Of a stretch of 64,000 bases of DNA, positions 56,284-61,619 are shown piece after piece (position 1 is the first letter of the stretch; every line of letters begins with the position of its first letter). The translations under genes and the position numbers were made by a program. Source of the DNA: Halobacterium wangiae (GTDB lineage Archaea > Halobacteriota > Halobacteria > Halobacteriales > Halobacteriaceae); assembly GCF_021249345.1 (NCBI RefSeq), contig NZ_CP089588.1, positions 2,418,001 through 2,482,000 of the forward strand, in the 5' to 3' direction. The notes under the pieces were generated by a model that saw only the letters and a program-made list of their open reading frames with translations, had not been told where the DNA came from and made no database searches.

Positions 56284-56460
56284 GGGTGTAGCCGCCGGGT
56301 TCCCCGGGGCTCGTGCGCTCGCCCACCCGTGATACGTGTCGAGCCGTGGACGCGCCAACGGAGACGAACGGCCGGGCTGGACGGGGGCGAACTCACCGCG
56401 AGACCGTGTGTACAGTTAACGTGGCTGCACGCGTACTCAGCAGAGTGGAGAGCAGGCATC

Positions 56461-57810
56461 ATGACCCTAGCAACGGTTTCGCGGTACGACGGTAATCAGG
56501 TGGGAGACAGGCGTGGGAACGCAGTCGTGTGTGGAGCGAGTATGGCCGGTCTGCTCGCGGCTCGCGTGTTAGCGGACCGATTCGCCGACGTGACGATCAT
56601 CGAACGAGATCAACTGCCGACCGAGCCAGCTGTGCGTCGAGGGGTGCCCCAGGGCGCGCATCCCCACGCGCTGCTCGAAGCCGGACGGGCGACGCTGGAG
56701 GATCTGTTCCCGGGGTACGGAGAGGAACTCGTCTCAGCTGGCGGAGTCGTCGTCGATTTCGCCAGCGACGTGCAGTTCTACGTCGAGGGGGACTTCCTCG
56801 CCCACGGGCCAACTCCGATGGAGACGTACTCCGCAACTCGACCGCTGATCGAGCAGACCGTCCGACAGTACGTATCCGCTCTCGATGGCGTCCACATCCG
56901 CTCGGGCTGCCAGGTCACCGACTACCTCCTCGACGACACAGAGACGGTCGTGGAAGGAGTGGCCGTCCGAGAGGGTGCCGACCAGACGGAGATCGCCGCC
57001 GACCTGGTCGTGGACGCCACCGGGCGAACGAGTCGAACGCCGACGTGGCTCGAAACCCATGGCTACACGCCGCCGGACGTCGACGAGGTGCGCATCGACG
57101 TGGCCTACAGCACCACCTACATCGAGCGACCTGCCGACGACCTGCGCACGTTCCTCGTCCCACCGTCCCCACCGCACACCCGTGGTGGGATGGCTGCGCC
57201 CGTCGAAGGAGACCGCTGGGTAGTGAGCGTACACGGCGTCCACGGTGACCATCCCCCGACAGAGTACACGGGATTCCGGGAGTTCGCGGCGAGCCTGCTG
57301 ACCCCCGAGGTGGAACAGCTCCTCGACGACCACCGTCAGGTCTCTGCCGACGTCGAGCAGTACCCGTTCCCGGCCAATAGACGGTACCGCTACGCGGACC
57401 TCGATAGATTCCCCGACGGACTGGTGGTCGTCGGCGACGCCATCGCGAGCTTCAACCCGATCTACGGCCAGGGGATGTCTGTGGCGGCTCTGGAAGCACT
57501 CGTGCTCCACCAGACCCTGGCTGCGGGCGGCCGTGAGAACCTCGCGCTTCGCTTCTTCGACCGTGCCGAAGCGGTGATCGACGCGGCGTGGACGTTGGCG
57601 GCGGGTAACGACTTCGCGTTCCCGCAGACGACCGGTCCCAGACCCCGGGGCACTGCCCTCACTGGCTGGTATCTCTCCCGGTTGGCTCGCAGAGCTCACA
57701 CCGACAGCACACTGTCCAGCGAGTTCTTCCGGGTGCTGACGATGGAACGCCCACCAACCACACTGCTGCGTCCGGGGAACGTGTGGCGCGTGTTCAAACC
57801 GACCGGCTGA
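56461..57810 (+). CDS. FAD-dependent monooxygenase-like oxidoreductase
   Basis: A 449-residue flavoprotein of the PHBH/geranylgeranyl reductase-like group. The FAD Rossmann segment is AVVCGASMAGLLAARVLAD (residues about 20-38), and the second FAD motif is LVVVGDAIASFNPIYGQGMS near 320. ADLVVDATGRTSRTPTWL is the DG/ATG-motif region. It lacks the CxxxxC of mercuric reductase, so it is not MerA. The substrate is unknown. ATG 56461 is the start with good coding bias; 44 further in-frame residues upstream look random. Confidence 0.82.
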   Translation: MTLATVSRYDGNQVGDRRGNAVVCGASMAGLLAARVLADRFADVTIIERDQLPTEPAVRRGVPQGAHPHALLEAGRATLEDLFPGYGEELVSAGGVVVDFASDVQFYVEGDFLAHGPTPMETYSATRPLIEQTVRQYVSALDGVHIRSGCQVTDYLLDDTETVVEGVAVREGADQTEIAADLVVDATGRTSRTPTWLETHGYTPPDVDEVRIDVAYSTTYIERPADDLRTFLVPPSPPHTRGGMAAPVEGDRWVVSVHGVHGDHPPTEYTGFREFAASLLTPEVEQLLDDHRQVSADVEQYPFPANRRYRYADLDRFPDGLVVVGDAIASFNPIYGQGMSVAALEALVLHQTLAAGGRENLALRFFDRAEAVIDAAWTLAAGNDFAFPQTTGPRPRGTALTGWYLSRLARRAHTDSTLSSEFFRVLTMERPPTTLLRPGNVWRVFKPTG

Positions 57811-57891
57811 ACGCTGTCGCTGTCGGTCAGTGAACGGTTAGTGCCTGTTCGTCGGCGAAGCACCAACTTCGAGCAGCCGAAGCTGCTGCTT

Positions 57892-57920
57892 TACTTCGGA
57901 CTTGGAAGTATAATTACTTC
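57892..57920 (+). promoter_or_regulatory. Triple operator half-sites over the TATA box of the lyase-like gene
   Basis: TACTTC (57892-57897), GAAGTA (57905-57910) and TACTTC (57915-57920) alternate in orientation, with 7-nt and 4-nt gaps. The TATA-like TATAAT spans the second gap. The first site continues as TACTTCGGACT, which recurs at 59387-59397. Confidence 0.6.
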
Positions 57921-57940
57921 GGGAATAGATGTGTGGGTGC

Positions 57941-58597
57941 ATGTCGGACCAAGACTGCAACTGTGGCGACCCGACGGTCGATCACGTACCTGAACAGCCC
58001 CGAGAATCGGTCAACTGGATCGAGGAGCGGCCAGTGAGGACCGCAGAACTCCCGGACGCCGTGGCAGACAACGTGAGTCGGTTCTTCGGCAGACCAGTCG
58101 AAGCGTTCGACGACGTGGTTGCGGCGATCCGTACTGTGGTCGAGGGCGACGGGATCGCTATCGACGAACTCTGCCACGTCGAGGCGGAGACCCCTCACCA
58201 AGCGAAGACGGACGCCGAGACCTACTACTTCCGGTGTTTCTACGACGGCATCGCACTGGCCCACCTCGTGGACGAACCCGTCGAGATCCGGACCGAAACC
58301 CCCACGAACGAACCTATCGAGATACGGGCGTCACCCGAGAGTGAGGTCGACGTGACGCCGTCAGGTGCGGTCATGTCGTTCGGCGTGGCGACTGAGAGCG
58401 ACGTTCCTGTCGACGAACCACCCACTGCCCAGGACGTCTACGGTGCCGTCTGTCCGTACGTGAAGGCGTTCTACACCCGCGAGGACTACGGGAACTGGGC
58501 GAAGGACGTGGCTGCCACCACGGTTGGAATCCCCCTCGACTCCGGCGTTCCCATCGCCGCTGCGCTGACGGCGACTCCGTCGGAGGTTGCAGAATGA
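57941..58597 (+). CDS. Alkylmercury lyase (MerB)-like protein
   Basis: A 218-residue protein. The MerB catalytic residues align: Cys99 and Asp102 (YFRCFYDGIAL, equal to Cys96/Asp99) and Cys171 (AVCPYVKAF, equal to Cys159); NWAKDVAATTVGIPL matches the MerB end. An N-terminal CNC (Cys6, Cys8) is extra. MerB splits carbon-mercury bonds, but no merA is in the window, so another organometal or thiol-linked substrate is possible. ATG 57941. Overlaps doxX by 4 bp. Confidence 0.8.
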   Translation: MSDQDCNCGDPTVDHVPEQPRESVNWIEERPVRTAELPDAVADNVSRFFGRPVEAFDDVVAAIRTVVEGDGIAIDELCHVEAETPHQAKTDAETYYFRCFYDGIALAHLVDEPVEIRTETPTNEPIEIRASPESEVDVTPSGAVMSFGVATESDVPVDEPPTAQDVYGAVCPYVKAFYTREDYGNWAKDVAATTVGIPLDSGVPIAAALTATPSEVAE

Positions 58598-58965
58598 ACC
58601 TCTCCACCGTCGCTATCCTCGGCTCGCAAGCCGTACTCGGACTCGTCGGCGTGGGCGTCGGAGGAGCGAAGGTCACCCACCGAGAGGACCAGGTGGAAGC
58701 CTTCCAGCGATTCGGCTATCCACAGTGGGCCCGAATCGGTACTGGCGTCGTCGAGATCGGGGCCGGAGCGGGTTTGCTCGCAGGCCTCCTGTGGTCGCCC
58801 GGACTCACACTGGTCGGTGGCGTGCTCCTGAGTACTGTTTTGGCTGGTGCGGTAGTCACCCACCTTCGCACTGGTGACTCGCCGTCGAAAACTGCCGTTC
58901 CAGCGACGCTACTCGTCCTCACTGCAGGTCTGCTCGCAGTCCGCTTCCTCTCGATTCCGGGGTAG
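58594..58965 (+). CDS. DoxX family membrane protein
   Basis: A 123-residue four-helix protein. AVLGLVGVGVGGAKVTHREDQVEAF with FGYPQWARIGTGVVEIGAGAGLL is the DoxX-like pattern. Family members interact with thiol and quinone redox systems. It is translationally coupled (ATGA) to the lyase-like gene, so the two proteins probably work together. Convergent with the HxlR gene 10 bp later. Confidence 0.85.
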   Translation: MNLSTVAILGSQAVLGLVGVGVGGAKVTHREDQVEAFQRFGYPQWARIGTGVVEIGAGAGLLAGLLWSPGLTLVGGVLLSTVLAGAVVTHLRTGDSPSKTAVPATLLVLTAGLLAVRFLSIPG

Positions 58966-58975
58966 CGTCAGAACG

Positions 58976-59359
58976 CTACGTTTGGCCAACCGACAGCTCC
59001 TCCTCGTCGATCGCTTCGGCCCACTCGAGGAGCGGTTCGAGATGCTCGCCCAGCTCTTCACCGATCTCCGTGAGGTCGTATTCGACCCGTGGTGGAATCT
59101 CGGCGTACTGCTCCCGGGAGAGGATCCCAGCCTCGACGAGTTCCTCGAGCCGCGTCGAGAGCGTCGAACTACTCACGCCATCGAACGTCTCCTCGATGTC
59201 GCCGTACCGTGCTGGACCGATTGCGCCCACCACGCAGATGAGCTGCATCGCGTACCGACGGCTGAGAAGATCCATCACCCCGCCCAGGGGACAGAGACAC
59301 TCCTGGTCGACAACTGCTGGGTCGGGCGTATCAGTCTCCGTGTCAGTGGTATCTGCCAT
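58976..59359 (-). CDS. HxlR-type winged-helix regulator with Cys pair
   Basis: A 127-residue regulator. CLCPLGGVMDLLSRRYAMQL opens the domain with Cys21 and Cys23 (a third Cys at 42). ARYGDIEETFDGVSSSTLSTR forms the recognition helix, and IPPRVEYDLTEIGEEL is the HxlR wing. The cysteines at the domain entrance suit a redox or thiophilic-metal switch, as in HxlR relatives such as HypR and YodB. It diverges from the CC-motif gene; a copy of the TACTTCGGACT motif lies before its start. Confidence 0.88.
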   Translation of the reverse strand: MADTTDTETDTPDPAVVDQECLCPLGGVMDLLSRRYAMQLICVVGAIGPARYGDIEETFDGVSSSTLSTRLEELVEAGILSREQYAEIPPRVEYDLTEIGEELGEHLEPLLEWAEAIDEEELSVGQT

Positions 59360-59386
59360 AGCTTTCGGTCACCACACCTGGTTCTC

Positions 59387-59428
59387 TACTTCGGACTCCA
59401 CAGCATAAATAGTTCGGCATTCAAAGTA
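59387..59428. promoter_or_regulatory. HxlR operator-like sites in the divergent promoter
   Basis: TACTTCGGACT (59387-59397) repeats the site at 57892-57902. A second, weaker site TAGTTC-GGCATTC-AAAGTA (59410-59428) keeps the 7-nt spacing. The TATA ATAAATAG (59405-59412) between them serves the + gene at 59439. Confidence 0.55.
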
Positions 59429-59438
59429 ATACTACGCT

Positions 59439-59777
59439 ATGAGCCAGAACGACTCGGAACGAGCGGTTGCGTGTACACTGACCGACGAAGAAAACGCAGC
59501 ACGACCCGACGAAGTCCAGTCAGTGCTCGTCTCCCGGTACGTGGGCTACGAGGAACGCGAGAACGGCGTGGACGTTCGGTTCGACGGTACCGACGAGTCA
59601 CTCCGGGCAGTCGCCCGGTTCACCTCGAACGAGTTGCAGTGTTGTTCGTTTGCCGAGTACCACATCACCGTGTCGCCCCCGTACGACGAAACGGTCTTGA
59701 CTGTCACTGGTCCCGACGGGACGCGACAGGTGTTCCGAGAGGGGTTCGTTGAGCGTCTGGAAGCGGCGGCGGTGTAA
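59439..59777 (+). CDS. Small CC-motif protein, unknown
   Basis: A 112-residue soluble protein. FTSNELQCCSFAEYHITV has vicinal cysteines (Cys68, Cys69), preceded by an invariant-looking helix and followed by beta strands (ETVLTVTGPDGTRQVF). It resembles small proteins with a (E)CC-x-F motif that I remember next to MerR-type regulators, but I cannot name the family. Another Cys at 12. The gene diverges from HxlR and shares its operator region. Confidence 0.72.
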   Translation: MSQNDSERAVACTLTDEENAARPDEVQSVLVSRYVGYEERENGVDVRFDGTDESLRAVARFTSNELQCCSFAEYHITVSPPYDETVLTVTGPDGTRQVFREGFVERLEAAAV

Positions 59778-59778
59778 C

Positions 59779-60681
59779 TCAATCTGCTCGTCCGAACCAA
59801 CTGGCGAGACCGGCGCTCGTCGCCATCTCGACGACACCGAAGACCACCGCTGGAAGCGACGCAATCGTCGGGAGGCCAGCCGCGATCACGAGTGCCGCTG
59901 CGACGGCAAAATCACGCATTCCTACGGAGAGAATCGACGCGATACGTGTCGGTCGATCTCCCCAGTGGCTCACGAGAAAGCCGACCACGTACCCCAGCCC
60001 GTTCAGCACGACGACACCAGCCGCGACACTGGCCAAGAGCGTCTGGTTCGAGCGGATGACCCCGGCATTCGCGGCTGTTACCCCGCCGATGATGAGAACC
60101 ACCATCGTCGCAGAGATCGCCGGATAGTAGGCGTCGTACTCACCGACACGATCGGGCTGCCACGCTCGTACGCCGATGGCGACGAACATGGGCAGGACGA
60201 CGGCCACGACCAACTGTTCGACTATCGGCAGCGTCGGGACAGAGATTCCGCCCGCGAGGTGGGCAACGACTGCCGGAATGAACCCGACACTCCCGACACC
60301 GATGACCACCAGGGCAGTCGTCGCGAGGGCCGTATCGCCGTCCGCGAGTTCGGTCATCACCGGCGTCACGAGTTCTGGCGTCACTGCACCGAGGATGACG
60401 AAACCGACTGTCAGTGCCGGCGATACGCCGAGTCCGTGTGCAACACCGACTGCGAGGAAGGGCATCGTTACGTGACCCAGGAGGATCAGGCCGACCGTCC
60501 TGACGCGAATCTGGTCGAACTGATCGACAGAGAGCGTCAGCGAGATGCTCCCGATCATCACTGCGAGGATGACCGTCGACGCACGCGTCACGACTGCGAC
60601 CGATGGCATCGCGATACCCAGGCCGACCGAGACGAGTATCCACAGCAGGAGATAGTCCTCGACGAGATCGGTCACGTTCAT
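59779..60681 (-). CDS. Bile acid:sodium symporter (BASS)-family transporter
   Basis: A 300-residue membrane protein with about nine to ten helices. GSISLTLSVDQFDQIR and FVILGAVTPELVTPVMTELADGD are the BASS/ACR3-type crossover region, and VLNGLGYVVGFLVSHWGD plus ASILSVGMRDFAVAAAL are its C-terminal half. No ACR3 Cys is apparent, so arsenite export is not supported. It is convergent (1 bp gap) with the CC-motif gene. The promoter lacks the TACTTC motif. Confidence 0.82.
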   Translation of the reverse strand: MNVTDLVEDYLLLWILVSVGLGIAMPSVAVVTRASTVILAVMIGSISLTLSVDQFDQIRVRTVGLILLGHVTMPFLAVGVAHGLGVSPALTVGFVILGAVTPELVTPVMTELADGDTALATTALVVIGVGSVGFIPAVVAHLAGGISVPTLPIVEQLVVAVVLPMFVAIGVRAWQPDRVGEYDAYYPAISATMVVLIIGGVTAANAGVIRSNQTLLASVAAGVVVLNGLGYVVGFLVSHWGDRPTRIASILSVGMRDFAVAAALVIAAGLPTIASLPAVVFGVVEMATSAGLASWFGRAD

Positions 60682-60938
60682 TCGATTCGACCTGTTCGCT
60701 GTCTGTACTGTCCCCGTATTACGGCGTCGATTCTACGAGGAGGTGCCGCGAGACGTGGTATCGACTCCGAGGCGGGGCAGTCCTGCGAGGAGGACGCCGA
60801 GATTCTGCGAGGTTGGCCTAGCCGCCAGGATAGCCACGACCATCACCGGGACGGTGGTTGCTCGGGTCCGCTACTGAGTAGCGCCCGCCAAGAGCCCACT
60901 CCCAATTTACGGTGGTGGACGCCGTACGTGTGGGTGTA

Positions 60939-61619
60939 ATGAGCGTCATGGCGGAGTTCACCGTCCCTGCGAGCGAGTTCGTACTGGCGGAGACGTTGAC
61001 GTCGTCGCCCGAGATGCGAATCGAGATCAAGCGCGTCGTGGGTGGGACGGAGTTCGTGACGCCGTACTTCTGGGCGACGGAGGGGGACTTCGAGACGTTC
61101 GAGGAGGCCCTTCGAGCGGACGACAACGTGCGCGACCTGCTCACCCTGGAGGAACACGAGGAACCGAAGGAGGCGACCGACCGCACCGACGAGGAACGGT
61201 TCTACCGGGTCACGTGGGGGACGAACGTACCGAACCTCGTCACGGCCGTCTCGGACTCCAAAGCGACCGTCCTCGAGGCGGTCAGTGGTGACGGTGGGGA
61301 GTGGGAGGTGAAAGTGCTCTTCCCCGACGAGACCGCCCTCTCGGAGTTCCACGACTACATCAGCGAACACGACTTCGATCTGGACGTCACTCGCGTCTAC
61401 CGCCCGGACAACCCACAGGAGCAGGCCGAGTACGGTCTCACGGCGGCCCAGCAGGAGGCCCTGGAGGCGGCCTACAACGCCGGCTACTTCGCCGTCCCCC
61501 GCGACCGAACGCTCACCGAACTGGCCGAGGACCTCGGCATCTCCCGGAACGCGCTGTCGACGCGACTCAGACGCGGCCACCGGAATCTGCTCGCGAACAC
61601 GGTCCTCCACGAGCAGTGA
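60939..61619 (+). CDS. HTH_10 (Bat-like) transcription regulator
   Basis: A 226-residue protein. Residues 1-160 form an N-terminal ligand-type domain (MAEFTVPASEFVLAETL, then VKVLFPDETALSEFHDYI). The C-terminal HTH_10 is LTAAQQEALEAAYNAGYF followed by LTELAEDLGISRNALSTR. It belongs to the haloarchaeal bacterio-opsin-activator group, usually activators. Start ATG 60939; neighbours give no target. Confidence 0.88.
   Translation: MSVMAEFTVPASEFVLAETLTSSPEMRIEIKRVVGGTEFVTPYFWATEGDFETFEEALRADDNVRDLLTLEEHEEPKEATDRTDEERFYRVTWGTNVPNLVTAVSDSKATVLEAVSGDGGEWEVKVLFPDETALSEFHDYISEHDFDLDVTRVYRPDNPQEQAEYGLTAAQQEALEAAYNAGYFAVPRDRTLTELAEDLGISRNALSTRLRRGHRNLLANTVLHEQ

Follow-up and report, generated by a model that had tools for sequence, protein, structure and literature searches.

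A likely mercury-responsive HxlR repressor and its paired operators at the mer genes of haloarchaea

Those members of the HxlR family of regulators (MarR/DUF24) whose signals are known respond to formaldehyde, to quinones or to disulfide stress (PMC8063818, PMC7835342). The bacterial mer operons are governed by MerR, a promoter-distorting activator with three cysteines that is encoded divergently from merA/merB, while in Sulfolobus solfataricus and Streptomyces lividans the mer genes are repressed by winged-helix proteins of the ArsR family, linked in Sulfolobus to merH with its TRASH domain (PMC3600143, PMC3466566). According to Boyd and Barkay (2012), certain merA genes of Euryarchaeota are accompanied by regulators resembling ArsR (PMC3466566), and these could include misnamed HxlR proteins. 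A literature search of open-licence papers returned no link between HxlR and mercury beyond incidental co-mention, and an HxlR mercury repressor seems to be undescribed so far. On the side of the enzymes, the handling of the released Hg(II) by organisms that possess only MerB is an open problem (PMC8261052).

The locus described here lies in a 64,000-nucleotide stretch of the Halobacterium wangiae genome (the window), and its comparison with related loci indicates that a mercury-responsive HxlR repressor probably controls merA, merB-doxX and the gene of a small cysteine-pair (CC) protein in haloarchaea. The regulator resembles YodB, HypR, QsrR and HxlR in family, size and a conserved cysteine (Cys23 here), and YodB also in its TACT...AGTA half-sites; it differs from them in an extra invariant Cys21, a third cysteine and its mer gene targets, and from YodB in a longer operator spacing (TACT-N11-AGTA) with two palindromes per promoter. 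With MerR it has in common the divergent position next to merA/merB, three cysteines and a predicted action at the promoter, but it comes from an unrelated family and probably represses simply by covering an archaeal TATA box. The ArsR-type MerR proteins are likewise winged-helix repressors of mer genes, whereas the window protein finds its best match in HxlR and reaches only 17 bits with the NCBIfam ArsR model, against 55. The lyase encoded in the window retains the equivalents of Cys96, Asp99 and Cys159 of canonical MerB, but the haloarchaeal form lacks Cys117, carries an N-terminal CxC/CxCC segment and usually occurs in genomes with no MerA. The features of the locus are as follows.

57890..57935, + strand: operator A, 5' of merB (palindromes 57892-57910 and 57915-57933; PWM score 54.3; kept 5' of merB in relatives)
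57909..57914, + strand: TATA-like box of merB (TATAAT), between/overlapping both palindromes; AGTATAA is conserved across the aligned sites
57941..58597, + strand: gene of a MerB-like organomercurial lyase, 218 aa (PF03243, E=1e-15; profile match to solved MerB structures; alignment A1)
58594..58965, + strand: doxX, gene of a DoxX_2 membrane protein (PF13564, E=4e-21; ATGA overlap with merB)
58976..59359, - strand: hxlR, gene of the HxlR-family regulator with Cys21-x-Cys23 and Cys42 (PF01638, E=1.6e-19; placed by tree)
59385..59430, + strand: operator B, in the gap separating the CC gene from hxlR, whose start is 25 bp away (palindromes 59387-59405 and 59410-59428)
59404..59411, + strand: TATA-like box of the CC gene (CATAAATA), seen in the sequence and aligned with relatives
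59439..59777, + strand: CC protein gene, 112 aa (no Pfam or NCBIfam match; Cys12, Cys68 and Cys69 invariant in relatives)
59779..60681, - strand: gene of an SBF/BASS-family transporter facing the CC gene (PF01758; recurs beside the module, lacks its own operator)

The merB-doxX pair is kept in 7 relatives. In a close plasmid-borne relative from Halobacterium noricense, merB is annotated as 'organomercurial lyase', the HxlR gene as 'helix-turn-helix domain-containing protein' and the CC gene as 'hypothetical protein'. The upstream gene of an FAD-dependent oxidoreductase (56329-57810) and the downstream BAT/HTH_10 gene (60912-61619) were considered as further members and set aside, as their places are not conserved in related loci.

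The first-pass annotation of this DNA had drawn attention to a sequence shared by the two promoters, TACTTCGGACT, which is present at 57892 and 59387, and to a palindrome 5' of merB, which proves to be a perfect TACTTC-N7-GAAGTA (TACTTCGGACTTGGAAGTA at 57892-57910). Its degenerate site with the same 7-nt spacing is also found, as TAGTTCGGCATTCAAAGTA at 59410-59428, two positions off TACTTC-N7-GAAGTA, and TACTTCGGGAATAGATGTG at 57915 departs from this pattern at two positions as well. The operator observation is thereby confirmed and is stronger than first stated. What the first-pass annotation had missed is that the merB and CC promoters share one architecture: a 19-bp palindrome, 4 bp and a second 19-bp palindrome flanking the TATA box, with TACTTCGGACT-N8 and the TATA-like box followed by the second copy, and copy starts 23 bp apart in both (57892/57915 and 59387/59410). 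In the alignment of the relatives' sites, about 42 bp are conserved across the operator, with dyad centres at positions 11 and 34 of the 46-mer, again 23 bp apart. The distance from the operator edge to the HxlR start codon is fixed as well, being 25 bp in 38/38 merA, 25/28 merB and 15/16 CC loci.

Within the window alone, a loose form of the pattern (up to 3 mismatches) gives 11 matches against 6.7 expected, a weak and non-significant excess, and weight was therefore placed on relatives. The consensus derived from these finds exactly two sites in the 3.1-Mb genome of the organism, operators A and B (none with the reversed pattern), and about 40 sites in 391 haloarchaeal genomes (again none with the reversed control). 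Across 84,980 bacterial and archaeal species the strict pattern has 41 matches, haloarchaeal without exception: 28 precede merA, 7 merB, 3 the CC gene and 1 a broken merB, while 2 lie near contig ends, and none falls clearly outside mer/CC promoters.

The co-occurrence of operator and regulator was counted in loci gathered by protein or family search rather than by the motif, with a scan matrix trained on CC loci only; three merA loci (L121, L125, L126) had first been retrieved by the motif, and the family search recovers the same genes. Some loci are near-copies, so that the following counts overstate independence: in the 391 haloarchaeal genomes the operator separates a divergent HxlR gene from merB in 29/29 cases and from merA in 38/38, precedes merB in 8/8 loci where HxlR stands elsewhere, as in the window, and is present at 17/19 CC genes with a divergent HxlR, against 0/28 merB and 0/4 merA loci in which HxlR is lacking. 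Against the model, L045 and L046 have a divergent HxlR beside CC and no recognisable operator. A single HxlR/operator module serving merB-doxX and the CC gene, as originally proposed, is supported by this close association and by its conservation in many genera, and the annotation's own refuting check, for loss of the motif in relatives whose genes stay together, did not go against it.

The regulator itself scores 70.0 bits against PF01638 (curated cut-off 20.8) and matches the solved HxlR, YodB and HypR structures. The Cys21/Cys23 pair that had been noted in the protein is there, and it is invariant in 78/78 operator-linked HxlRs. These form one clade separate from other HxlRs (support 100/98), within which the merA-linked proteins are a subclade (support 100/99). 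The third cysteine differs between the two types, being Cys42 in 47/47 merB/CC-linked HxlRs, while 31/31 merA-linked HxlRs have Ser42 and an N-terminal cysteine instead. Metal sites built from several thiols are found in MerR and ArsR, and by this analogy three thiols would suit Hg(II) or As(III).

It is unlikely, yet to be weighed before the other alternatives, that the protein binds the operator as a general sensor of thiol stress (quinones, disulfides, electrophiles) in the manner of YodB, HypR and QsrR, with the mer genes as one output of that response. Membership of the same family speaks for this, as does Cys23, which aligns with residue 14 of HypR chain 4a5m, the family's sensing cysteine, and is found in 15/15 other HxlRs too; for YodB, too, TACT/AGTA half-sites are preferred, with a spacing of 7 bp (PMC8063818). 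However, the readable genes downstream of the operator are merA, merB or CC and never quinone or azo reductases, only two operator sites exist in the organism's own genome, and Cys21, present in all mer-linked HxlRs, occurs in 0/11 other HxlRs of these loci, which carry Cys23 alone. A second HxlR subfamily (WCAGDxWCAVTCA...IGKKWHPVI) stands near many of the clusters, e.g., at L029:5744, L032:9825 and L036:5343, and has no such operator.

Mercury as the signal is suggested by the target genes and the cysteines. In Halobacterium NRC-1 the gene called 'merA' proved to encode a gamma-glutamylcysteine reductase (PMC7278568), and for this reason MerA was accepted only above the TIGR02053 cut-off and with a check of the C-terminal cysteine pair. 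By this measure the MerA linked to HxlR in other haloarchaea is, judged from its sequence, a genuine MerA: it reaches 525 bits against a cut-off of 454, contains the redox motif CVNVGC, and the C-terminal CC is found in 40/42 MerA-type sequences of at least 60% identity, the remaining two being truncated. The first-pass annotation had proposed a regulon for a thiophilic metal or electrophile; the regulon is supported, and the finding that the same module drives true merA in other haloarchaea points to mercury as its signal. The organism's own genome contains no MerA above the TIGR02053 cut-off. In the haloarchaeal set, merB occurs in 59 genomes and merA above the cut-off in 52, both together in 5 against 7.8 expected, and 54/59 merB genomes are without merA.

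The start of the window MerB is better placed at 57941 than at 57929, because close relatives begin there with M-S-x-x-x-C-x-C. Its Cys99, Asp102 and Cys171 correspond to Cys96, Asp99 and Cys159 of solved MerB and are invariant in 26 aligned sequences, and the residue aligned with canonical Cys117 is a proline, which makes the protein a MerB-like variant of the kind termed '117alt' (PMC8261052) and a predicted C-Hg lyase. A cysteine-rich N-terminus (CxC or CxCC; 57941-57970 in the window) is seen in many haloarchaeal MerBs, both operator-linked and unlinked, and is possibly a site of mercury hand-off.

The CC protein has Cys12, Cys68 and Cys69 invariant in 19 relatives and is most simply read, from its sequence, as a thiol carrier for Hg/As. 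A related-locus search with the CC protein alone gave no matches. A structure search with its model (pLDDT 80) gave no fold with confidence, the best match being the C-terminal domain of ArgR (VIA Z 8.8, 8% identity; Foldseek E >0.05), and carries no weight here. The neighbouring SBF/BASS transporter gene recurs beside CC-hxlR, directly follows merB in L136:5702-6601, and lies near merA in L226:6867-7760, where it is 76% identical to that of the window; its product is a candidate mercury-related transporter.

That trivalent arsenic or methylarsenicals are the main signals for the merB/CC-type regulon, and that mercury is sensed in the merA branch only, is less probable still. In two species the operator precedes a gene in which the CC domain is fused to the N-terminus of the arsenite methyltransferase ArsM (L041:7379-8635, L047:7046-8230), an SBF/ACR3-like transporter recurs beside the module, and the third cysteine is unlike between the merA- and the merB/CC-linked HxlRs; yet the merB type is mostly linked to a lyase with the full set of MerB catalytic residues, and the window SBF protein scores as PanS/BASS rather than ACR3. 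Because of the ArsM fusions, arsenic may nevertheless be a side signal in some branches. Least credible is that the conserved block is merely a strong BRE/TATA core promoter inherited from a common ancestor, with no regulator bound: it does span the TATA box at a fixed distance from start codons, but it is missing from all the HxlR-less merB and merA loci, it is conserved over about 42 bp and has two dyads, and it is also found 5' of merB genes that have no HxlR gene directly beside them, that of the window included.

The HxlR is therefore most plausibly read, on comparative grounds, as the haloarchaea's own mercury switch. As a dimer, this winged-helix repressor would bind both neighbouring 19-bp palindromes across the TATA box, blocking access of TBP/TFB at the merB-doxX and CC promoters, acting in trans on operator A and repressing its own promoter through the divergent operator B shared with the CC gene. 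Binding of Hg(II) or an organomercurial by Cys21, Cys23 and the third cysteine (here Cys42) would release the repressor and induce MerB, which would cut C-Hg bonds, together with DoxX and the CC protein, the latter as a thiol-rich carrier or scavenger; merA would fall under the same regulator in other haloarchaea. A regulator and an operator, previously missing for haloarchaeal mercury genes, would thus be at hand, a likely metal sensor would join a family that is known to sense electrophiles and redox state, and the operator allows mer regulons to be located from sequence alone. The CC protein, DoxX and the SBF transporter offer concrete partners for the question of how MerB is survived without MerA (PMC8261052). 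More tentatively, and with somewhat less than even confidence, haloarchaea may have replaced MerR/ArsR with an HxlR mercury sensor, whose third cysteine, N-terminal in the merA-linked HxlRs and at position 42 in the merB/CC-linked ones, would tune it to Hg(II) or to organomercurials, and merB+/merA- haloarchaea may run a reductase-free organomercury pathway in which the co-regulated CC protein, as a chaperone, deals with the released Hg(II) together with DoxX and possibly the SBF transporter.

Two further kinds of merA-related loci were seen. One (L246; G305 C2, about 959900-962200) combines a merA-type HxlR and a weak operator with a MerA-like oxidoreductase that has no C-terminal cysteine pair, and may be a mer locus that has drifted or been repurposed. 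The merA genes without HxlR (L226, L236, L237, L176) share another palindrome-like block just 5' of the start codon, about CTAAyGAnnATTAGrATG, which suggests that haloarchaea have a second mer regulator, unrelated to the HxlR.
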